Virus record (IMG/VR): IMGVR_UViG_3300036985_005814
Span: 1-64,000 of that record
Reading direction: 5' to 3' (one strand)
DNA: 64,000 nucleotides
DNA from: a virus
In this document: piece by piece, positions 2,548 through 57,700 of the stretch
Layout of the letters: the number at the start of each line of letters is the position of its first letter
Numbering within the stretch: the first letter of the stretch is position 1
Notes under the pieces: model-generated
The model's input: the letters and a program-made list of their open reading frames with translations, nothing else
Databases searched by the model: none
Told to the model about the DNA's origin: nothing
Position numbers and translations under genes: made by a program

Positions 2548-2813
2548 AACTTGAAGAATTGAAAGTTTTTCCTCATCCAATGGGTTTTCAACACCGAGAG
2601 CTGTTTGAGAACGGTTACGGGATCTCCGTCATTCCTGATAATAGTTTGGGGGAGGATCCGCTTTACGAAGTGGCAGTGCTGACCCATAATGAAGGAAGGC
2701 ACGCCCACCTGACTTACGAGACCGAGATTACTGACGATGTAATTCGTTACTGCACTGTTGATGCCGTAGACACCTTGATCGAGCGTATTCGCTCTCTCCC
2801 GAAAACCGAATGA
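2544..2813 (+). CDS. Hypothetical protein upstream of topoisomerase
   Basis: An 89-residue protein linked to both neighbours by ATGA overlaps (with the 2344 gene and with the topoisomerase gene at 2810). It has a mixed alpha/beta pattern with 'HPMGFQHRELFENGYGISVI' near the N-terminus and a C-terminal helix 'VDALIERIRSLP'-like segment. The tight coupling suggests co-expression with the topoisomerase subunit, but no interaction can be shown from sequence. No family recognised. Confidence 0.6.
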   Translation: MKLEELKVFPHPMGFQHRELFENGYGISVIPDNSLGEDPLYEVAVLTHNEGRHAHLTYETEITDDVIRYCTVDAVDTLIERIRSLPKTE

Positions 2814-4804
2814 CAGAAAACCTAACATCGACCAATCTAACCTCCCAAATGAAGGAGGATTACATGGCTTACTCGATGGCCGTCCTTCTTGGGCGAGCCA
2901 TCCCAGACATGTATGACGGACTGAAACCTGCCCAGCGCCGCGTTCTTCAAACGATGTTTGAGGAAGGGTTGATGCCTGAGAAACGCTACGTGAAGTGCGC
3001 CCGTGTAACTGGCCTTGCGATGGGTTACTACCACCCGCACGGCGATTGCTACGGCACACTGGTCAACATGGCTACAACCTGGAACAACAACGTACCCTGG
3101 GTTGACGGCCATGGCAACTTTGGTAGCACCGTTGATGGCCCAGCAGCCGCTCGCTACACCGAGTGCAAACTGCGTCCGTCCGCTGTTGAATTGCTGCTGC
3201 AAGACAAAGTTACGTGGGAAACCCGTGACAACTACGACGGATCTCGACAAGAAGCTGTAAGATTCAACACTGCGATTCCTTCCGTGCTGCTTAATGGCGA
3301 CACAGGGATTGCGGTGGGTTTTGCAACGAAACTGGCCCCCCATTCTCTGCGAGCGGTTGTGGAAGCAACCAAACTTGCTTGCGAGCTCAAAGCACCCAAA
3401 GAGGCAAAAGCTCGCGAACTCCTGATCCCTGATTTCCCAACTGGATGCGACATTGTCAATGACGACGAACTTAAGAGGTACAAAGAAACGGGCTCTGGCA
3501 ACATTCGCTGCCGCGCTAAGTACGAGTCCGGCATACAGAAACGAAGTGGCAAGGCAAAAGATCGCCTCACACTTACGTTCACAAATCTCCCGCCTGGGGT
3601 CAACCCTGAAAAGCTCGGTGAACAAATTCGTGACGCTCTAGAGAAAGGCAAACTCGATGGAATCGCAGAAGTTATCGACGAATCTGATCTCACCGGAGAC
3701 CGTGTCACAGTTGTTGCGAAGCCCAATGTCGGAACTGAGCAGCTGGTTCAGCAACTCTACGCATACACCGATCTCGACTCTCGCTATTCAGCAAAGACGC
3801 TGGTTATTGACGGTACGCGACCCGTTGAGCTCAGCCCAGTTGAAATTTGTCAGAAATGGTTCTCGTGGCGAATGGCTCGCCTGGAGCGAAAGTTCCACCA
3901 AGAGCTAGACCTTACTGAGCAGCGCCTTGAGATTGTGATGGGCTTCATCAAGGCCATCGACAAGATCGACGCAATCATTAAGAAGATCAAAGAGTCGGCC
4001 TCAAAGAAAGAGGCTCTGGTTGCCCTCGTTGATCGCCCATTCAAGTTCACTCGCGACCAAGCAGAGGCAATCCTTGAGATGCGCCTGCGCCAGCTAACTG
4101 GCCTTGACCAATCTGAACTGGAGGCTGAGAAAGTAACTCTTGAGGATAGGCGGAAAACTCTTGAGGAACTTGCTAAGAACGAGGAGGTGCGTCACAAGTG
4201 GGTCTACACTCAAATCACTGAGCTGGCCAAACGCCACGGGGAGGCCCGCAGGAGCGCCCTGGTGGAGCCCCCCGCAGGCAGCGCGACTATCACCCCCAAG
4301 ACCGGCCAGAAGAGGCCCCCAGCTCCGCCCAAGCCCCGCTTTCTTAAGATTGATCTGAAAAAAGGTCTTGTTGAACAAGCAAAGGGACCACGGGGCGCCA
4401 TGGTCGTAGACGCGAAGGAAAAAGTGGTTTTCATGACCCAAGATGGCTTCTTAAAGAAGGTTGGAGCAACTTTCAAGGGTCCAATCTCCTCGAGCTACGG
4501 ACCGGTGGCTCTCGCGAAGCGCGAAGCTGAGGTTTCCCAGCGGAAGTACCTGTGCGTCTTCAAACTTGAAGGTCAACTGAAAGCAGTTGTGCTCAACGGT
4601 GAGGATCTGTGCAAGGCAACCAGCAAGGGCAAACTCTTCCTCCCCGCTGAAGCCGAGTTTGTCTACCTTGGCGAAGGTTCATACCCCGTGCCATGGGTTT
4701 CTTCACGAAAGAAAAAAGTGGAACTCAACCTTAACACCGTGAAGCAAGGGCGACCCGGAGCGAAGGGGATCAAGGTGGCCAACCTCGATGAGGTCAACCT
4801 GTGA
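2810..4804 (+). CDS. Type II DNA topoisomerase subunit A (GyrA/ParC-like)
   Basis: A 664-residue protein with the conserved breakage-reunion core: 'MAYSMAVLLGRAIPDMYDGL' then KPAQRRVL, a YYHPHGD loop and the catalytic tyrosine in AARYTE (residue 116), which forms the covalent link to DNA. It should relax or decatenate phage DNA together with a GyrB/ParE-type ATPase subunit, which is not in this window. At 664 residues it is shorter than GyrA (about 875) or ParC (about 750), leaving only a reduced C-terminal region; a basic, proline-rich linker near residues 485-510 precedes a small C-terminal beta-rich part. It starts in an ATGA overlap with the upstream gene. T4-like phages also encode their own topoisomerase, so this fits a replication role. 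Confidence 0.9.
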   Translation: MTENLTSTNLTSQMKEDYMAYSMAVLLGRAIPDMYDGLKPAQRRVLQTMFEEGLMPEKRYVKCARVTGLAMGYYHPHGDCYGTLVNMATTWNNNVPWVDGHGNFGSTVDGPAAARYTECKLRPSAVELLLQDKVTWETRDNYDGSRQEAVRFNTAIPSVLLNGDTGIAVGFATKLAPHSLRAVVEATKLACELKAPKEAKARELLIPDFPTGCDIVNDDELKRYKETGSGNIRCRAKYESGIQKRSGKAKDRLTLTFTNLPPGVNPEKLGEQIRDALEKGKLDGIAEVIDESDLTGDRVTVVAKPNVGTEQLVQQLYAYTDLDSRYSAKTLVIDGTRPVELSPVEICQKWFSWRMARLERKFHQELDLTEQRLEIVMGFIKAIDKIDAIIKKIKESASKKEALVALVDRPFKFTRDQAEAILEMRLRQLTGLDQSELEAEKVTLEDRRKTLEELAKNEEVRHKWVYTQITELAKRHGEARRSALVEPPAGSATITPKTGQKRPPAPPKPRFLKIDLKKGLVEQAKGPRGAMVVDAKEKVVFMTQDGFLKKVGATFKGPISSSYGPVALAKREAEVSQRKYLCVFKLEGQLKAVVLNGEDLCKATSKGKLFLPAEAEFVYLGEGSYPVPWVSSRKKKVELNLNTVKQGRPGAKGIKVANLDEVNL

Positions 4805-4874: not shown

Positions 4875-5429
4875 ATGGACGAACAACAGCTGATTTACCC
4901 GGTGGCGCGTTTACTCGCCAACCCTCGCATTTTTCACGCCGTCGCCAATTATCTTGGCGGGCCGGACGCTGAAACGATCAAGGACACCTTTTACGAACTT
5001 CTGGAGCACGGTTTCCAGATGCTCGATGACCCGGAGGACTGCGCCTTTGACTCCGAGGAAGTTTGTTTTATCGCTAAAGACGACGGGGCTATCTTTGAGA
5101 TTGTTCTTGACACTGGAATCGCAGCGAACCTGGAAGCAGTCGAAGGTGAACTGAGAGCTCAGTTTTCCAACGACAACGAGATGGCCGCTGCTTCAGCAAT
5201 CTACCAGCGTCTTGTTACCGCGATTGAGGAATCCAACCCGGAGCTAGCTGGTAATATTGCGCTGTGCTCGCCCCCAACCCCAGGTAACTACTACCTGCGC
5301 TCACGAGATGGCGATCGCTTTGAAGGGAGCTTCCATTTACTGAGCGACCCAGAGCGCCTATACTCGTTTAACGTTGAGGTCATCGACGTCAACACCGATC
5401 AACTGAGAGCAACGATTCGCCCGATCTGA
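4875..5429 (+). CDS. Hypothetical protein, 184 aa
   Basis: An acidic 184-residue protein I do not recognise. The frame also has a GTG at 4872, but the ATG at 4875 is a better start, with GGAG at 4864-4867. Predicted alpha-rich N-terminus (about 1-50) and a mixed C-terminal part. Its stop overlaps the ATG of the next gene (TGATG at 5428-5431), so the three genes 4875-6492 form a coupled operon. Confidence 0.6.
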   Translation: MDEQQLIYPVARLLANPRIFHAVANYLGGPDAETIKDTFYELLEHGFQMLDDPEDCAFDSEEVCFIAKDDGAIFEIVLDTGIAANLEAVEGELRAQFSNDNEMAAASAIYQRLVTAIEESNPELAGNIALCSPPTPGNYYLRSRDGDRFEGSFHLLSDPERLYSFNVEVIDVNTDQLRATIRPI

Positions 5430-6897: not shown

Positions 6898-6924
6898 TTT
6901 ACAGCGGTTGCGCCCCGCTATACT
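6898..6924 (+). promoter_or_regulatory. Sigma70-like promoter of the DNA polymerase gene
   Basis: TATACT at 6919-6924 with TTTACA at 6898-6903 (15-base spacer, short). The ATG of the polymerase gene follows after only five bases, another leaderless arrangement and a class different from the GGGTAAAA sites. Confidence 0.45.
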
Positions 6925-6929
6925 AAACC

Positions 6930-9725
6930 ATGAAAAATCTAACGTCCGTGAAGAAAACTCAACTTGGATACCCCGTTCTGTCAGACGACCTACATGACAA
7001 AATCTTTGGCACCGAGAAGCCACAGAAAATGTCTCGTCTGTCCATTCAGAAAGCAGAAAACCTGCTGAAAGAGTTTGATATTCCTGTCCCTGTAGATCAC
7101 CCTGCAGGTCTGTATGATGGCCCTCTGCCGCTTCCAGACTTGAAGGGTGATTTTTTGCGCGATCATTTCGAAAAGATCGCTGGCGAGCAAGTTGGCCGCT
7201 ACAAGAAGCTCGGTGATCAATTCTCTCGCTGCAAACTTCCCCCCCTCCCTCCACCGGACCAGTTCGTATTTGAGCCAGGCTGGGTTCGTTACGAGTGGGT
7301 GGAGAATGAGGATGCGGGTGGGTGGTATATTGAACATGTGGATTTTCCCGAGGAGGAAGCATTCACGTTTGATACCGAGACCTATGTGCACGGTGGTGCG
7401 TTCCCGATCATTGGCACCGCTCTCAGTGAGAAAGCGGCGTATGTGTGGATGGCTGCTGAACTAATTGATCCGACTATTCCGGAAAGTCAGTGGGACCAGC
7501 ACGAGCTAATTCCGATTGGAACCAACCGCTTCATTCCCGGTCACAACATTAGCTATGACCGTGTTCGCGCCCGCGAAGGTTACAACCTCGACCAAACCAC
7601 CCCGGAAAACTTCTACTTCGATACTCTGTCCGCTCACATCGGTGTGTCTGGCTTGGCCAGTGGTCAACGCTGGCTGTACGTTCTTGCAGGCAAAGACCCT
7701 GAGAGTCTGACTCCGGACGAGAAGCGGAAATTGCGATATGCGCCCAAGTGGCTTGACAAGGGTGCCACGAATAGCCTTGTGCAGTGTTACAACTTCCACG
7801 TTGCAGCCGTCCGAAAGTATTTCGGAGAAGATGTCAAAGAGCTGGGCGACGTAGATAAAAAGGTTCGTGACATCTTCGTGGATGCTACGCACCTTTCTCA
7901 GATTCGCCAGGTTCTGACTGACGCTCTCGACTACGCTCTGAAAGACGCTTACTACACCGCCGAATTGTTCCAGGCGCTGTGGCCAAAATATCTTGATAGC
8001 ACACCTTCGATGGTGGCCCTCTGCGGTCACTACCATCTGAATGGGTCGATCATTCCTCTTGTGGATAACTGGTCCGAGTGGATTGAAGATGTAGAGAGCG
8101 TCTATAAGGAATACAACGACGAGATGACGCAGATCTGTAAGGATCTGGTGTGGAAAACTTATGAAGACTGGCGCGTCTTGTACCTTAACGATCCTGCCAA
8201 AGCCCAGCAATGGGTTCGGAGAGATCCGTGGGTTTCTCAACTTGACTGGGAGATTAAGTCTACGAAAGGTAAATACGCGCACATCCCAAACTGGGTGCGT
8301 CCGTTCATCAAAGATGAGAATCAGCACATCGGTGTGAAGTCGAACCTGGCTCACCTGATGCTGAAACTCAAGTACGAAAACAGCCCGATGATCTTCACCA
8401 AGAATGATGGCTGGTGTTATCATGACGAGGACGGTAACCTGACGAAGATCCCCCACCCGAAAGGCAATGGAGACAATGTTGGCGGTGTGTTGAGCAAAGA
8501 TTTCGTGGAAGATATGGCGGTCGGGCGCCTCAGCAGCGACCTTCCCGAAGCAAAACGTGCGCTCGAGATTGCCAACTCTGTGTCCTACTGGACGTCCGTG
8601 CGCAAGCGTGTGATGGATCGCATCTTCCTGCGTGCAAACAACCCTTACGGCGAAGACTCCCTGGTAACTCTGCCCGAGATCCTCTGCCACGGCACGGTTA
8701 CTCGCAGAACCGTAGAATCGCTGATGGTTACGATGTGTTCTACCAAGAACTGGCGCATCGGCACAGAGCTGAAAACCCGAGTCAAAGCTCCCGATGGCTG
8801 GAAGATTGTGGGTGCTGACTTTGACGGTCAGGAAATGCAAATCGCTTCAATCTACAGCGACAAGTGGGAAGGTGGCCACATTGGTTGCTCACCTTTCGGT
8901 TACAACGTTCTGAGTGGCTCGAAAGAGGCAGGCACGGACCCACACAGCGCCCTCGCCAAGCTGGCAGGGGTGGACCGGGACACCGCTAAGATCGCCGGCT
9001 TCGCTGTTCTATACGGGGCTGGTGTCCGTGCTGTGCAGACCTACATCCGCCGCAAGTATCCAGAAAAGTCCCCCACAGAAGTGAAAAACTTCGCCTACCG
9101 TATTCTGGAAGGCAAGAAGGGTAAGCAGCGGTCCGGCCTTTACGAAGGAGGTTCTGACTCCGGTTGCTTCAACTATATGGAAGAGATCGCAATGCGAACT
9201 CGCGTGCCTCAACTCCCGTGCCTCGGTACGAAGATCTCGACTGCGATGCGCCCCGCCGCTGTGGGTGACGACTTCAAGACTGGTCGGGTGAACTGGACGA
9301 TTCAATCGTCGGGTGCGGAGATTCTGTCAATCTTCCTCACCTCGATCCACTGGCTTACCAAAGAGTACAAGATTCCAGCCCGGTTTATACTGAGTATCCA
9401 TGACGAGATCTGGTTTATGACACCGGATCGTTACGCAGAGCAATTTGCTGTTCTGTTTCAAATCGCTCACATGTACACCTGGTCTTTGTTTCACTCGGCG
9501 GTGGGAATTCCAGAGCTGCCGCTGTCGCGGGCATACTTCTCGAGCGTAGCGATTGACAACCGCATTCGCAAGTCTCCCAAGGAAAAGACTGTGACGCCCT
9601 CTAACCCTGGCGGTGACAAAGAACCTGCGGGGGTTGAATACTCGATGAGGGAACTGTCCGAAATCGGGGCAATCGACAAACTTAACACTCGCTTCAACGC
9701 AATCAAGAAAGGCCTCATCAAATGA
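6930..9725 (+). CDS. Family A DNA polymerase of the mitochondrial gamma type
   Basis: A 931-residue replicative polymerase with proofreading and polymerase domains. Exo I is FDTETYV (about residue 147-153), Exo II is GHNISYDR (about 204-211) followed by 'FYFDTLSAHIGVSGLASGQR', which resembles the animal POLG region FLDTMSMHM...SGLSSFQR rather than E. coli Pol I. Polymerase motif A is VGADFDGQEMQIA (about 628-640), motif B lies around AKIAGFAVLYGAG (about 680-695) and motif C is SIHDE (about 822-826). The C-terminal TPSNPGG also has a counterpart in POLG. It should replicate the phage genome. Genes of this type are known from a group of marine cyanophages; here it is shorter than human POLG (about 1239), lacking the long accessory spacer. 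The next gene starts in an ATGA overlap. Confidence 0.9.
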   Translation: MKNLTSVKKTQLGYPVLSDDLHDKIFGTEKPQKMSRLSIQKAENLLKEFDIPVPVDHPAGLYDGPLPLPDLKGDFLRDHFEKIAGEQVGRYKKLGDQFSRCKLPPLPPPDQFVFEPGWVRYEWVENEDAGGWYIEHVDFPEEEAFTFDTETYVHGGAFPIIGTALSEKAAYVWMAAELIDPTIPESQWDQHELIPIGTNRFIPGHNISYDRVRAREGYNLDQTTPENFYFDTLSAHIGVSGLASGQRWLYVLAGKDPESLTPDEKRKLRYAPKWLDKGATNSLVQCYNFHVAAVRKYFGEDVKELGDVDKKVRDIFVDATHLSQIRQVLTDALDYALKDAYYTAELFQALWPKYLDSTPSMVALCGHYHLNGSIIPLVDNWSEWIEDVESVYKEYNDEMTQICKDLVWKTYEDWRVLYLNDPAKAQQWVRRDPWVSQLDWEIKSTKGKYAHIPNWVRPFIKDENQHIGVKSNLAHLMLKLKYENSPMIFTKNDGWCYHDEDGNLTKIPHPKGNGDNVGGVLSKDFVEDMAVGRLSSDLPEAKRALEIANSVSYWTSVRKRVMDRIFLRANNPYGEDSLVTLPEILCHGTVTRRTVESLMVTMCSTKNWRIGTELKTRVKAPDGWKIVGADFDGQEMQIASIYSDKWEGGHIGCSPFGYNVLSGSKEAGTDPHSALAKLAGVDRDTAKIAGFAVLYGAGVRAVQTYIRRKYPEKSPTEVKNFAYRILEGKKGKQRSGLYEGGSDSGCFNYMEEIAMRTRVPQLPCLGTKISTAMRPAAVGDDFKTGRVNWTIQSSGAEILSIFLTSIHWLTKEYKIPARFILSIHDEIWFMTPDRYAEQFAVLFQIAHMYTWSLFHSAVGIPELPLSRAYFSSVAIDNRIRKSPKEKTVTPSNPGGDKEPAGVEYSMRELSEIGAIDKLNTRFNAIKKGLIK

Positions 9726-16891: not shown

Positions 16892-17566
16892 GTGAGTTAC
16901 CTCAAACACTATATCAAACTAATGCGGAAGGCGGAGTACCGTGGGTGGACGAAAAAGTCTGCCCCGTGCTATGTTGAAGAGCACCACATTTTAATCAAGG
17001 CAATTTTTGGGGAGAATGACCGGGTGGTTTATTTGACGGCGAGGGAGCACTTTATTGCGCATCTGTTGCTGTGGAAGGCATGCCGAAAGCGGTATGGAGT
17101 TCAACACTGGAAAACGGCGAAAACTGGTAAAGCGCTCCAGTCTATGAGCATGAAGTCTAAGTTTACTGTAAACCGTTACGTTCTGAGCTCTCGGGAGTTT
17201 GAAATAGCAAGAGTGGCGAATATCGAAAGTATGCTTGGTGATAATCACTGGAGTAGGCAAGAAGGTGCTGTAAACCCTTTGATTGCCCTGAACAAAGATC
17301 CGGTTAGGGCACAGTACATCGGAGAAATCAATGGAAAGCGGGAGAAAGAGAAGTGGGATAAAGGGGAGCATCAGTGGCAAGACCCCGAGTTCATCGAAAG
17401 CAAGAGGCAACGCATGGTTAATGGGCAAGCAGCGCTGATGGGGTCAAAAGTAAAAGGAAAACTCTGGTGGAATAACGGAGTGAAACAAACTCGTGCCCTT
17501 GAGTGCCCTGGCGAAGGGTGGGTCAGAGGCAGATTGCCTTTCCCAAAAATGTTCGGAGGTAAGTAA
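16892..17566 (+). CDS. Free-standing HNH homing endonuclease
   Basis: A 224-residue HNH nuclease: EEHHI (His 31-32), an Asn at 42 in GENDRVV and REHFIAH (His 53 and 57) give the beta-beta-alpha metal motif. The N-terminus (SYLKHYIKLMRKAEYRGW) is typical of phage HNH family members with a leading helix. The C-terminal WWNNGVKQTR ... PGEGWVRGR segment (WxNxG then GWxRGR) is a DNA-binding tail also seen in the intron-encoded HNH at 22918. It starts with GTG at 16892, has no Shine-Dalgarno sequence and ends one base before the portal start. Homing endonucleases often reside next to conserved genes such as portal. Confidence 0.85.
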   Translation: MSYLKHYIKLMRKAEYRGWTKKSAPCYVEEHHILIKAIFGENDRVVYLTAREHFIAHLLLWKACRKRYGVQHWKTAKTGKALQSMSMKSKFTVNRYVLSSREFEIARVANIESMLGDNHWSRQEGAVNPLIALNKDPVRAQYIGEINGKREKEKWDKGEHQWQDPEFIESKRQRMVNGQAALMGSKVKGKLWWNNGVKQTRALECPGEGWVRGRLPFPKMFGGK

Positions 17567-22673: not shown

Positions 22674-22707
22674 CAGTTGGGCATCCTCCGGGTGTAAGTC
22701 CCAACTG
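22674..22707 (+). other. 8-bp perfect stem-loop before the capsid gene
   Basis: CAGTTGGG (22674-22681) pairs perfectly with CCCAACTG (22700-22707) around an 18-base loop. No T-tract follows, so it is not a classical terminator. It may act as a processing or attenuator structure, or be part of the fold 5' of the intron; its position between decoration and capsid genes is notable. Confidence 0.4.
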
Positions 22708-22755
22708 TGGTTTAACCATTTGAAGTCGTTTAATCCCCATTAGGAGAATACTCCC

Positions 22756-24698
22756 ATGATGAATCGAGTTGGTTCCCACCGGAAGTGATTCCGGATGGAA
22801 AATCGGGTGAATTGCTGGGACCCCCTAACGTTTAGTCGAGGGAAATCAGCAGCCAAGTTTACTTCGGGTAACCTATTGTATAATAGGTTTGAAGTAAAAA
22901 GGTTCAACGACTAGAAAGTGACTTACCCAAGAATAAACTTTCCACGAGTGCCCGACGCTCGGATCGATCACTACTTCAATCGTTATCTTCGTATCTGTTG
23001 CTCTCTTCTTGACATTGGTCGAAAGAAGCGAAAAGGTGATTTCCTTGAGAAACACCGAATCTTTCCGGGGTCCCTCGGTGGAGACTATGGTGAGGAGAAT
23101 GTTGTGATAGTTACACGAAGAGAGCATGCTCTTCTTCATTTGTTACTTCACAAATCTTTCCCAGAACACAGGAAAATAGCGCAATGTGCCGCTATCATGT
23201 GTGGTTCAAAAGGCTCAAAAACCTACAAATCGCTTGCTTACATCCAGGGCTGTGAGGAAAAATCTAAACTCATAGCCGAGTCGAACAAAAGAAGGAAAGT
23301 CACCTGGGGTGACAAGATCTCTCAATCTTTGAAAGGTCAAGAGAAAACAGAAACTCATCGAGACAAGATCGGTAGATCTATGCGTAAGGTTTGGGAAACC
23401 GACCCTTCAATGAGAGACCGGTGTTCTCGAAAAGGTTCCAAACACACTGACGAGTCAAAACAAAAAACAAGTGAAAAAATCTCTCGTCAAAAATGGTACT
23501 GGAAGATAGAAGATGAAGTCGTGATTAGAACTCGGTCGGAAAAACACCCTGGGGATGGGTGGAGCCGAGGAAAAAATCCGAGATGATGATATAGTCTGAC
23601 CTCACGCGAAATCGTGAGAAGTGGTGAATAAAGAGTCATCACGATAACAAAGTGCTCCAGCAAACCTATGCTGGCGTAGATCCGATTCTGACTACGCTCG
23701 CACAAGGTTTCATGCTTCCGGCGACTAATATCGCCAACTTTATTGCCCCTGTTGTTGACACCCCGACTCGTGCTGGCCGCATTCTGCGCTTCGGCAAAGA
23801 GCAATTCGCCATCAACGATTTCCGTCGTGCGTACGGAACCAACATTCCGTTCGTTCAAAGCCGTTACGATGCTGAGCCTTACGCGCTCGAGCAAGAAGTC
23901 GTGGCTTGGGAACTGCCCGAAGAAGTCATCGAGAACGCTGGCGAAGGTCCTGCTCAGGTTGATCTGCGTGCGATCGAAACTCGCAACGCTATGAGCCGCC
24001 TGATGAATGCTTACGAGTACACTGTAAGCCAGGCTGTAACCGTAACCGCTGGTTACAACCCTTACGAGCCTTCTGCTGGTGCTGGCACTCAAACAGGTCT
24101 GGGTTTCACAACCTGGGCTAACTTCAACACCGCCTACGGTTCTGCTACTGGCCCTTCGGCTTGGTCTTCACTGACTTCCAACCCGATCGAGGACATCCTG
24201 ACCCTGAAGCGTTCGGTTGCCAACCAGATTGGTATTCGCCCGAACTCGATGGTTCTGGGAACCGCTGTGTTTGACCAACTGCTGACCAACCAAGCGATCC
24301 TTGAGCGCATCAAGTACACGACTGCCGATTCAATCGACACAGATCTTCTGGCTCGTTACTTCGGTCTTGAGCGTGGTCTGCGCGTTGCTGAAGGTCGTTA
24401 TCTTGCCACCGATGGCACCCTGCAGCCTGTGTTCCCTTCAAACGGAATCCTGCTGTTCTACAGCCCCAATGGTCCTTCAGACAGCGTAATGCCTGCTGGT
24501 GGCGCTAACGCTGCTACCCCTGCTTTCGCCTACACCTATCAGCTGACCGGCACCCCTGCTGTGCGCCCCGAGTACTACATTCGTGAGCGTCGCGTGGTTC
24601 GTGCTGAAATCACTGTTGAGCGTGTTGTTAACCTGGTTGGCCTTGGCGCTACGGGTCTTATCGGTTCTGGTGCGATGATCTCCAACATTCTTGGTTGA
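22756..24698 (+). CDS. Major capsid protein, interrupted by a group I intron
   Basis: Proposed structure: exon 1 22756-22770 (ATGATGAATCGAGTT, five residues MMNRV), intron 22771-23654, exon 2 23655-24698 (LQQTYAGVDPILTTLAQGFM onward); total 352 residues. The AGGAGA (22743-22748) gives exon 1 a strong ribosome-binding site, which the downstream frame lacks. Unspliced mRNA would stop at TGA 22786 after ten codons. Exon 2 encodes an alanine-rich, beta-rich protein with FGKEQFAINDFRRAYGTNIP and EYYIRERRVVRAEITVERVV, fitting a HK97-type or Mu gpT-like coat. Position next to portal, protease and decoration supports major capsid. Exact splice sites are inferred; the alternative GTG at 23652 lacks a Shine-Dalgarno sequence. 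Confidence 0.75.
22771..23654 (+). ncRNA. Group I intron with internal HNH ORF
   Basis: All four core elements are visible in order: P at GTGAATTGCTGGGACC (about 22816-22831), Q at AAATCAGCAGCCAAG (about 22843-22857), R at GGTTCAACGACTAGA (22901-22915) and S at GATATAGTC (23588-23596), with the GACTA/TAGTC P7 pairing. A P9-like hairpin CTCACG/CGTGAG (23601-23616) and a GTGGTGA/TCATCAC stem follow. A P1 stem TTGGT/ACCGG across 22769-22782 places a T.G pair at 22770, which fits the predicted 5' splice site. The 3' end is set by G at 23654 (GTG just before CTCCAG); G at 23652 is an alternative. The HNH ORF occupies the interval between R and S (P8 region). Length about 884 bases. Confidence 0.8.
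22918..23586 (+). CDS. Intron-encoded HNH homing endonuclease
   Basis: A 222-residue HNH nuclease with EKHRIFPGSLGG (His 46), ENVVIVTRREHALLHLLLHK (Asn 61, His 70, His 74). Starts with GTG at 22918, only three bases beyond the intron R element, so the reading frame begins within the folded core. The C-terminus has WYWKIEDEVVIRTR ... PGDGWSRGK, the same GWxRG(R/K) tail as the free-standing HNH at 16892. It should cut intronless alleles of the capsid gene and mobilise the intron. It ends one base before the S element, so the ORF is an insert in the P8 loop. Confidence 0.85.
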   Translation: MTYPRINFPRVPDARIDHYFNRYLRICCSLLDIGRKKRKGDFLEKHRIFPGSLGGDYGEENVVIVTRREHALLHLLLHKSFPEHRKIAQCAAIMCGSKGSKTYKSLAYIQGCEEKSKLIAESNKRRKVTWGDKISQSLKGQEKTETHRDKIGRSMRKVWETDPSMRDRCSRKGSKHTDESKQKTSEKISRQKWYWKIEDEVVIRTRSEKHPGDGWSRGKNPR

Positions 24699-25179: not shown

Positions 25180-25207
25180 TTTACCTTTTAGTTTACTTTC
25201 CTATAAT
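25180..25207 (+). promoter_or_regulatory. Sigma70-like promoter fused to a hairpin
   Basis: TTTACC (25180-25185), 16-base spacer and perfect TATAAT (25202-25207), followed at once by the hairpin at 25208. Expected start at about 25213-25215, inside the hairpin. It would serve the zinc-finger gene at 25240. Confidence 0.5.
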
Positions 25208-50944: not shown

Positions 50945-51610
50945 ATGAAACATCGGCACCATTTAATTCCAAAACACAGAGGGGGGAACAATGACGAGTC
51001 AAATTTAACACAACCTATACACCCTACAAAGTGTTTAGACGGGTGGTCCTCCCACGCTTTGTTTCATTACTGCGAGTGGAAGTTATGGGGGAAAAATCAA
51101 GATTACCTTGCCTGGAAGGGTCTATCAGGATTTCTGGGGAAAGAGGATATTATTGACACACTTATGGAAGAAGGAAGGAAAAAGGGGAGGGAAACAAACA
51201 AAAAGACAACTAGAAAAATGATCTTGGAAGGGAGTTTTATCCTCCTTCAGCCGGATGTGAGAAATAAAGCGATAGCGGCATCACAGAAGTCTCAAAGAAA
51301 ACTGATAGATCAAGGTTTACACGCTCTTCAGAATCCCGAGATGAGGGCACGTAAAGCAGCGGAAGACAGTAAAAGGAGGAAAGAAGAGTTTGAGCTAGGA
51401 ATAGCCTCTCTTCAACGACCTGAAGTTGTAGCCAGACAAAAAGAAAAAAGTTCTCGATCTAGATCTTGTCAAAACTCCACAAAAATAACTTGCCCCCACT
51501 GCGGAAAAACCGGGGGTCACACAAATATGAAAAGATATCACTTCGACAACTGTAAATTCAAGGGTAAAACCACGGAAACGGGAGTTTTGAATGTGGGGAT
51601 CGTTCTCTGA
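50945..51610 (+). CDS. HNH homing endonuclease with C-terminal zinc finger
   Basis: A 221-residue HNH nuclease: RHHLIPKHRGG (His 5-6), ESNLTQPIHP (Asn 20) and SSHALFHYC (His 37, 41) complete the fold. Residues about 80-165 are a long basic helical linker with repeated (K/R)-rich units. The C-terminus is CPHCGKTGGHTNMKRYHFDNC, a finger like that at 25670. The 3' end of the gene includes the GGGTAAAA of the next gene and overlaps it by 20 bases, so the endonuclease sits in a region where upstream and downstream genes are near paralogues at their N-termini. Confidence 0.85.
   Translation: MKHRHHLIPKHRGGNNDESNLTQPIHPTKCLDGWSSHALFHYCEWKLWGKNQDYLAWKGLSGFLGKEDIIDTLMEEGRKKGRETNKKTTRKMILEGSFILLQPDVRNKAIAASQKSQRKLIDQGLHALQNPEMRARKAAEDSKRRKEEFELGIASLQRPEVVARQKEKSSRSRSCQNSTKITCPHCGKTGGHTNMKRYHFDNCKFKGKTTETGVLNVGIVL
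51562..51569 (+). promoter_or_regulatory. GGGTAAAA motif inside the HNH gene
   Basis: 29 bases before the ATG at 51591; read in frame in the HNH protein as (K)GK(T). Confidence 0.55.
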
Positions 51611-54737: not shown

Positions 54738-57700
54738 ATGTCTGCTGTAAAAGTTATCTTCAAGCGTTCGAGCATTCCGGGAAAGCGCCCGACGAGCTCA
54801 AACCTTGAGGTCGGTGAGATTGGCCTGAATACAAACTCGAACGATCCAGGTCTTTTCTTCGAAGTGAATGACGACAGTGTCGTCAAAGTCGGCCCAACAT
54901 CAGTTCTTCCGGAAGCTCCAACAAATTCGCCGTCCAAGGGCGAACTTTGGTTGAACACGCAGGATGGAACTCTTAATGCCGGTGTCTTCAAGGATTCCGC
55001 CGCGCAGTGGCAGACGATTGCGGCGCCCTACTTAGGTGGGGGAGGTTACGTTGTATTCGTCGCACCTGAATTTCCAGGCTCTACAGACTCAGTGTTGAAC
55101 GACGGACAGGCTCTGCCTTTCCAAACTCTGACTCGAGCCATTCTTGAGTTGAGCAAGATTACAATCAATGCGATCTTGGCGGGTTCAACCCCCGCAAGCG
55201 AGAACAGCAAATATACGATCTATGTCGCACCGTCCCGTGTCACAGCTAACAACGGGCCTGGCGCCAGCTTAGCAGAATTTAACGTAAACTTCTCTGCCGA
55301 CCCTTTCGCGAAAGTTACAACAACGCAGTTAACACAATTCAACAGTTCGACGGGGGGAGTGATTGTTCCCCGAGGTATTTCGATTGTAGGTCTTGACCTG
55401 AAGAAGTGCATTATCAGCCCTACATACGTACCGAAATACAGAAATCCTGCTTTCTCGTCAGGTGTAAATGGCAACTTCAATCAGCCGATTACCTCCGTCT
55501 TTAAGTGGACTGGTAACGCCTATCTTAACAATTTCTCGATACTCGACAAAGTAAAGGCAAGAGATGTCTATAAAATTGAGTCGTCATCAAACGGAGAAGC
55601 GATTTTTTACTCAACAAGGCCTCACGGTCTAGAAGTGAACGATATTGTGAATGTAGAGTTCGCAGCGAGTGTGAATCAAATTACCGGGTCTTTCCGAGAC
55701 GGTGAGTACTACGCGTATCCTATCGACACTTTCTCTTTCTACCTGCGCACCGCCCCGGACTCACTATACGTAAAGTATTCCGAACTTCCAACGATTTCGA
55801 CGTCTTCATCGGTGATTCTGTACGTTACAAACACACTGAAGTCGGCTCACCGTCTTCGTGGAACTCTGAACACGACTCTTGAAGAATTAGCAGACTACTA
55901 TACGAAAGTTCAAAGAGCTTTCCCCGACTTCTTTGGTGGCCAGGTTACCAACGGTGCCTTCCTTGTGAGCCAAGCGGAGTACACTATAGTTGCGCCAACT
56001 GATTCCACGTATCCCAACAACCGTGAGGTTAACACCACTGGCAACTCGTCGGCTTACGCGAACAGTGTGAATGTTCGGTCCGATTACGGAATGTGCTGGG
56101 GCGAGATTATCGGTAGCCAAATTAAAGGGTTCCGATCCCTAATCGCCAACGAATGCACTTGCGTTTCATTACAGAACGATCCTGCAGCGTACGAGATTTA
56201 TACGACTCTGCCCAACCCAACCACAAACGTTTTAGAGCAAAAGTGGTGGTCTTTAGCGAGAGCGACGTACCTGTCGTACCCTCTTGATGAGCGTCCTAGT
56301 TCAATCGACGCGGTTTCTACTGCCGATCAACTAAGCCTTCTCAACAGAACTCAGATTAAAAACATTCGTTATTACTACCAGAACCAAGTTATCTCTGGGA
56401 TCGACAAAAGTATTGGCATCGTGGATGTAGAGGAGGATTTTCGCCACTTTGGCTTCCGGGTTCGTGATAACGCTTACGCACAACTCCAGTCCATCTATAC
56501 CATCGGTTGCGCGACTGGCGTTTGGGCTTTGAATGGTGGATACATCTCGCTTACAAACAGCACCAGCAATTTTGGCTCCGTCGCAATGAAGTCGGAAGGG
56601 TTCTTTGGGATCAACACCGTTGGCGGGGCTGAAGACAACCAGACTGGTTTCCTGTTTGAGGGAATTCAGAGGCCGCTGGCTTTAACTGAATCTCAGGCGT
56701 GCTCGAACCTTAACAAACAGATACTTTCCCTCGGTGCACAGATTGTGTCAGTAACCGAAGATGAGCTTGACCCTGAGATCCAGCTAATCCAGCTAAGTGC
56801 AGAGTTCTCCCCGTGCTATATCCTTCCTTACGCGCTCAATCCAGGAAGCGCAGTGTGGATTAAAAACTTTGCAACGGACGAGACTTACAGGGGTTTCTTT
56901 GCAACAGATGGTGGACCGACCGTCATTTCCACGCCCGGCTCATGCGGGTCAACAACAACCCTTCGAATTCGGGCTTCCGACAGCACGATTCCAATGGCTT
57001 CGGTAATAAACAACTTGGAAGTTCCGTACATTCGCAGGTTCCTTGACCCTCGGTCGGAATTTGATCGTGCGTATAGTTTCAAGGTTTCTAACACGTATCC
57101 TACGGTAATTCCCCCACAAGTCGGTGCGGTTCTACGTCTCAACCAACTCAACCAGGCTATTAACCCTGGCACACTTCGCCCGAACGTTCAGTTTGACCCC
57201 GGAATTACTGGTGGATGGGGAAGAATTTTCACCGTTGACCACGTATTCACCGCAGCTTTGGCTGAGTCACCGCAGTTTAACTACGTAATCGGGGACAGCA
57301 ACGAGAACGTTAACTACTACTTTACGGCCACTGTTTCCGACTACGCTCGGCCGTGGAAACAAGAGTTTAACAACGCGACAGGTTCTATAGTCACGTATCA
57401 GCAAAGAAATTGGTACGCTGCGGAGAATAATCTGTGGCAAACCCTGTACTACGGGGGTGCCGCTTCTTTCAGACCAAATGCTGGACCCTTCAAACTTGCC
57501 CCAACAGAAGCATGCTCGCCTTTCGTTGATACTAGCGTTCTTGACCGGCAGGACTTTGTTTTTGACCAACAAGGTGGAATTCCGGGTACTTACCAAGGAA
57601 CTTACGCTCAAGACCCCTACGCTGTGGGCGACCTGTACTCCGAAACGGATACGTATTTCCGTGGTTCCACCTACCCGTACCCCTCCTACACGATTCAATC

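Follow-up and report, generated by a model that had tools for sequence, protein, structure and literature searches.

The locus considered here raises the question of whether an uncultured virus copies its genome with a DNA polymerase of the mitochondrial gamma type (POLG), and of how such an enzyme would bear on the origin of the mitochondrial replicase. The DNA studied, hereafter the window, comprises positions 1-64,000 of IMG/VR virus record IMGVR_UViG_3300036985_005814, a 70,327-base fragment from an uncultured virus. A preliminary description of this DNA had singled out an open reading frame at 6930-9725 (plus strand) as closer to animal POLG than to bacterial Pol I, quoting four short peptide strings. 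All four (GHNISYDR, FDTLSAHIGVSGLASGQR, SIHDE and TPSNPGG) are present in the frame, and alignment with the human and yeast enzymes identifies them as exo motif II, a POLG block, polymerase motif C and the C-terminal block, respectively. With a probability of about 0.93, we consider the gene to encode the single-subunit, proofreading, POLG-type replicative polymerase of a myovirus whose host is very probably a cyanobacterium.

Architecture, fold and family placement

The reading frame is uninterrupted, with 931 codons from an ATG at 6930 and zero internal stops, and it is under strong purifying selection (dN/dS = 0.02 in a pairwise comparison with a 97% identical relative). The start more likely lies at codon 7, a GTG at 6948, giving a gene of 6948-9725 and 925 residues, because several relatives, which lack any start codon where the window has its ATG at 6930, begin with an ATG that aligns to this one. 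Directly upstream is a promoter-like TTTAC...TATACT element (6898-6924, plus strand), whose position is kept in close relatives. The more general pattern TTTAC...TATAMT has four copies in the window, where shuffling predicts 0.18; the other three are at 5336-5364, 22858-22884 and 25180-25207, and the pattern is likely to be a recurring promoter type of this phage; the 6898-6924 element is missing from the output of a sigma-70 consensus scan. Further upstream is a gene for a DNA gyrase/topoisomerase IV subunit A-like protein (2810-4804, plus strand), a conserved neighbour that is found in the same place in Synechococcus phage S-CBWM1.

Residues 67-354 (7128-7991) of the protein match the mitochondrial polymerase exonuclease family PF18136 with an E-value of 3.9e-60 and 203.9 bits, compared with a cut-off of 26.7, and contain exo I (FDTET), exo II (GHNISYDR) and exo III (YALKD). 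A short spacer (residues 355-504; 7992-8441) leads into the polymerase domain (residues 505-891; 8442-9602), over which the generic DNA_pol_A family gives a weaker match (E 8.6e-11). Motif A (ADFDGQE, residues 629-635; 8814-8834), which is the site at which Mic1-type relatives carry a group I intron, is followed by motif B (RDTAKIAGFAVLYGAG, residues 683-698; 8976-9023) and motif C (HDE, residues 824-826; 9399-9407), all on the plus strand, and the alignments show each of the three exonuclease and three polymerase motifs to be intact. The closest solved structures are those of yeast Mip1 (9c51; E 2.6e-115) and human POLG (E ~1e-109). An AlphaFold2 model built with 17 sequences (mean pLDDT 87) superposes on human POLG along the whole chain, with a TM-score of 0.82 and Z-scores of up to 38, compared with a TM-score of ~0.35 to T7 and Pol I-type enzymes and a Z-score of ~17 to the latter. 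Human POLG and yeast Mip1 therefore have their exonuclease family and overall fold in common with the window protein, at 26-32% identity in structural alignments.

The resemblance does not extend to every part of the animal enzyme. The preliminary description had proposed a search for regions that interact with the accessory subunit, and none was found: in the alignment with human POLG there is no equivalent of residues ~501-567, within which we take the accessory-subunit-interacting (AID) segment to lie. The human insert of ~119 residues ahead of the polymerase domain, forming its long spacer, is reduced to ~9 residues in the window protein, and motif B carries a Phe in place of human Tyr951. 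Of the features that mark the animal POLG holoenzyme, the AID segment and the motif B Tyr951 are thus lacking.

Phylogeny, which had also been suggested as a check, bore the family assignment out. In a tree rooted with T7 gp5, E. coli Pol I and five phage family A polymerases, the phage sequences, including that of the window, form a single clade with human and yeast POLG (100/100), apart from T7, Pol I and the other phage enzymes, and a 100/100 branch stands between E. coli Pol I and every POLG sequence. A common polymerase of T7 or bacterial Pol I type, with a likeness to POLG confined to short motifs, would, like the window protein, belong to family A and match DNA_pol_A over its polymerase domain, but it would be expected neither to contain the PF18136 exonuclease nor to match POLG over its full length in both sequence and fold. 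The AU test also rejects a tree constrained to join the window clade to the T7-type enzymes (p 2e-10). We give that explanation next to no chance. Sequence and model together support the classification of the window enzyme as a POLG-type family A polymerase, neither Pol I nor T7-type.

Phage relatives and their interrupted genes

The preliminary description had stated that cyanophages with this polymerase type are known, and passages of the Mic1 paper (PMC7156551) indeed report it, with citations of Chan et al. 2011, Sabehi et al. 2012 and Xu et al. 2018. The window polymerase adds another member to this already known phage group of S-CBWM1, S-TIM5, A-HIS1/A-HIS2 and Mic1. A DNA-level search of window positions 1-25,000 against a phage collection gave zero matches, and a viral scan based solely on the A-HIS pair found no relatives; IMG/VR was scanned with short peptide patterns, and at least 127 distinct near-full-length phage sequences were gathered. 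S-CBWM1 ranks first among the matches to phage isolates, followed by S-TIM5, A-HIS2, Mic1 and A-HIS1. The DNA polymerase gamma of S-CBWM1 (ATW62761.1) is 56.5% identical across the whole protein; both phages have gyrA upstream and structural genes downstream of the polymerase and a Phe in motif B, whereas the S-CBWM1 enzyme is 22 residues longer, mainly because it has an additional loop, missing from the window protein, between motifs A and B. The POLG-type polymerase of cyanophage S-TIM5 (AEZ65654.1; 38% identity) has the same motif order but belongs to a separate clade, with Tyr in motif B and HDS in motif C where the window protein has Phe and HDE. Those of Acaryochloris phages A-HIS1 and A-HIS2 (28-32% identity, A-HIS2 32%) have the motif B Phe but form a distant clade and, unlike the window protein, carry an insert of ~40-50 residues ahead of the polymerase domain. 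The Microcystis phage Mic1 enzyme (31% identity) has Tyr in motif B and a motif A cut by a group I intron, and groups with human and yeast POLG. POLG-type polymerases were also seen in records of jumbo-phage size (L129, 279,339 bases; L135, 277,244; L136, 201,260; L130, 189,900), and the L135 record contains psbA as well.

At the motif B position of Tyr951, 84 of the 124 distinct phage sequences scored among the matches listed have Phe and 40 have Tyr, the latter including S-TIM5-type and Mic1-type enzymes and L064. E. coli Pol I F762 and T7 Y526 are the analogous positions that govern ddNTP selectivity. Because Phe replaces Tyr951, the window polymerase is predicted by this analogy to discriminate against ddNTPs, unlike POLG and T7 polymerase. 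Two variations in the motifs were noted in passing. A divergent POLG on a very long branch (L187, 6624-9125) has Phe at both aromatic positions of motif B (AKTLNFLMLF), and the S-TIM5 lineage (L067, 9983-12664, and other S-TIM5-type loci) has HDS rather than HDE in motif C, with VHDS in at least 35 distinct sequences of that lineage among the matches listed.

The window polymerase gene is itself unsplit, and pattern-based scans revealed a few relatives, among the matches listed, in which it is divided. In L050 (5733-9240) residues 1-501 and 506-931 are separated by an ORF of HNH type, which matches Pfam HNH (E 1.3e-4) and the homing endonuclease family phrog_655 (E 1.8e-6). In L042 (10001-13696) the gene is parted in the motif A-B loop by an ORF that matches no family, and the same arrangement precedes the C-terminal POLG part of L062 (694-1440). 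The 693-base region concerned is identical at 688 positions between L042 and L062, while 42% of the synonymous sites differ in the polymerase parts next to it, a disparity which fits a recently mobile element. Three POLG pieces with other small ORFs between them are found in both L064 (2392-7704) and L065 (8450-13762), where the breaks fall in the linker between spacer and polymerase domain and in the motif A-B loop, as they do in L050 and L042.

Each half of the L050 and L042 polymerases has a dN/dS of 0.03-0.06 relative to the window polymerase, and an ATG or GTG lies in frame in the downstream pieces, close to the point at which homology resumes. The third piece of L064 is preceded by AGGAGA ahead of its ATG, with a TTGTCA...TATAAT-like stretch upstream. 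Rfam searches at lax thresholds found no group I or group II introns at the breaks of L042, L050 and L064. On these sequence features, separate translation of the pieces is favoured. The L050 break may nevertheless be an undetected intron, as a T is possible as the last base before the break and a G before the resumption, matching the requirement for group I splicing. Split inteins were also considered and set aside, because the N-terminal pieces stop within a few residues of the homologous sequence. Split phage family A polymerases of a different type have been described (PMC10580990).

Interruption takes another form in Mic1 and its relatives (L182, L183, L237 and others), where motif A is broken after GADVDS. 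The 5' exon ends in T, the interruption ends in G, and the exons fuse in frame as DVDSQE. Rfam group I intron models match in the correct place and on the correct strand, at scores (Mic1 45.5, L237 35 and L183 19 bits) that lie below the gathering score of 50, the L183 score proving little by itself. Judged by these features the interruption is a group I intron; it is located at 9807-10104 in L069 and is also found in L182, L183, L184, L237, L241 and L256, the copies in L183 and L237 enclosing HNH-like ORFs, and it is absent from L185. In the passages of the Mic1 paper concerned with this gene a 298 bp intron is named and given no class (PMC7156551). Taken as a set, the split and intron-bearing relatives mark natural break points of a POLG-type enzyme.

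The window has an intron and homing endonuclease ORFs of its own outside the polymerase gene. A group I intron at 22702-23618 (Rfam, 61 bits) encloses a phrog_655 homing endonuclease ORF (22918-23586) and is adjoined on its downstream side by the major capsid protein ORF (23652-24698). Further phrog_655 homing endonuclease ORFs lie at 16892-17566, overlapping the start of the portal ORF (17493), and at 50945-51610. A tRNA-Leu (caa) called at 55092-55189 on the minus strand lies within a plus-strand tail fibre ORF and is possibly a false call.

Proposed role and host

The architecture suggests how the enzyme would work as a member of the S-CBWM1-like branch of the family that includes mitochondrial POLG. 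Its N-terminal DEDD exonuclease would trim mismatched ends, and the palm, fingers and thumb of the C-terminal part would elongate primers made by the phage's own primase, with two-metal catalysis through carboxylates of motifs A and C. Like yeast Mip1, the polymerase would function on its own, with no POLG2-like accessory subunit. A cyanobacterial host is likely because psbA is present in the records of close relatives (L003, L007 and L011, with polymerases 97, 94 and 95% identical to that of the window) and in S-CBWM1. There is no psbA match in the window's own 70,327-base record, and neither a helicase nor a primase was found in the part of it that was examined, so that the proposals for host and replisome draw on these relatives.

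The enzyme might instead serve repair or some other minor task, with the genome copied by host Pol III or by a phage enzyme beyond the sequence in hand; the window comes from an incomplete record, and its role is read here from sequence and model. The complete genome of S-CBWM1, in which a primase, a 5'-3' exonuclease, ribonucleotide reductase and psbA are annotated, has no second annotated DNA polymerase catalytic subunit beside POLG, a Pol III epsilon-like exonuclease aside. This, together with the strong purifying selection on the window gene, argues against a minor task, which we regard as very unlikely, and favours the main-replicase role. The similarity to mitochondria does not extend to the whole system, since sigma factors are annotated in S-CBWM1 and a single-subunit RNA polymerase is not.

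Relation to mitochondrial POLG

The relevance of such phage enzymes to a phage origin of the mitochondrial replication enzyme, which the preliminary description had also claimed, holds with a qualification: the POLG family is common to phages and eukaryotes, but the lineage nearest to the eukaryotes is Mic1-type and not the S-CBWM1-like lineage of the window. In rooted trees of the polymerase domain, Mic1-type siphophages are sister to human and yeast POLG (93/87 and 91/84), and unrooted full-length trees group them at 100/100 and 100/99; the S-CBWM1-like branch lies farther from the eukaryotes in these trees. Eukaryotes are represented by two sequences, human and yeast, assembled from alignments of solved structures and placed on long branches, for which reason we hold a phage origin of mitochondrial POLG to be plausible and put it no higher. 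The more specific arrangement, in which mitochondrial POLG falls inside the phage radiation as sister to Mic1-type siphophages, the replicase is phage-derived and the window enzyme is a more distant cousin, is offered tentatively, at somewhat less than even odds.

The reverse direction, in which a phage captured its gene from a eukaryotic nuclear POLG, would produce the same family membership, as similarity alone does not give the direction, and the AU test does not reject a single clade of all phages (p 0.098 and 0.12). It fits poorly with the presence of several deep phage clades, beside one of which the eukaryotic pair is placed in the rooted trees, and with a window protein that has no trace of the human AID or long spacer insert, and we consider it highly improbable compared with an older phage ancestry. 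A scan of bacterial and archaeal genome contigs with short peptide patterns did not find the family, which the relevant passages of the Mic1 paper report, outside eukaryotes, from cyanophages only; a common ancestor had already been proposed there from an unrooted neighbour-joining tree (PMC7156551). The wider phage POLG family is thus relevant to the origin of the mitochondrial replicase, and the environmental relatives gathered here are diverse enough for a tree to be rooted by an outgroup and mark the Mic1-type phages as the lineage to sample.
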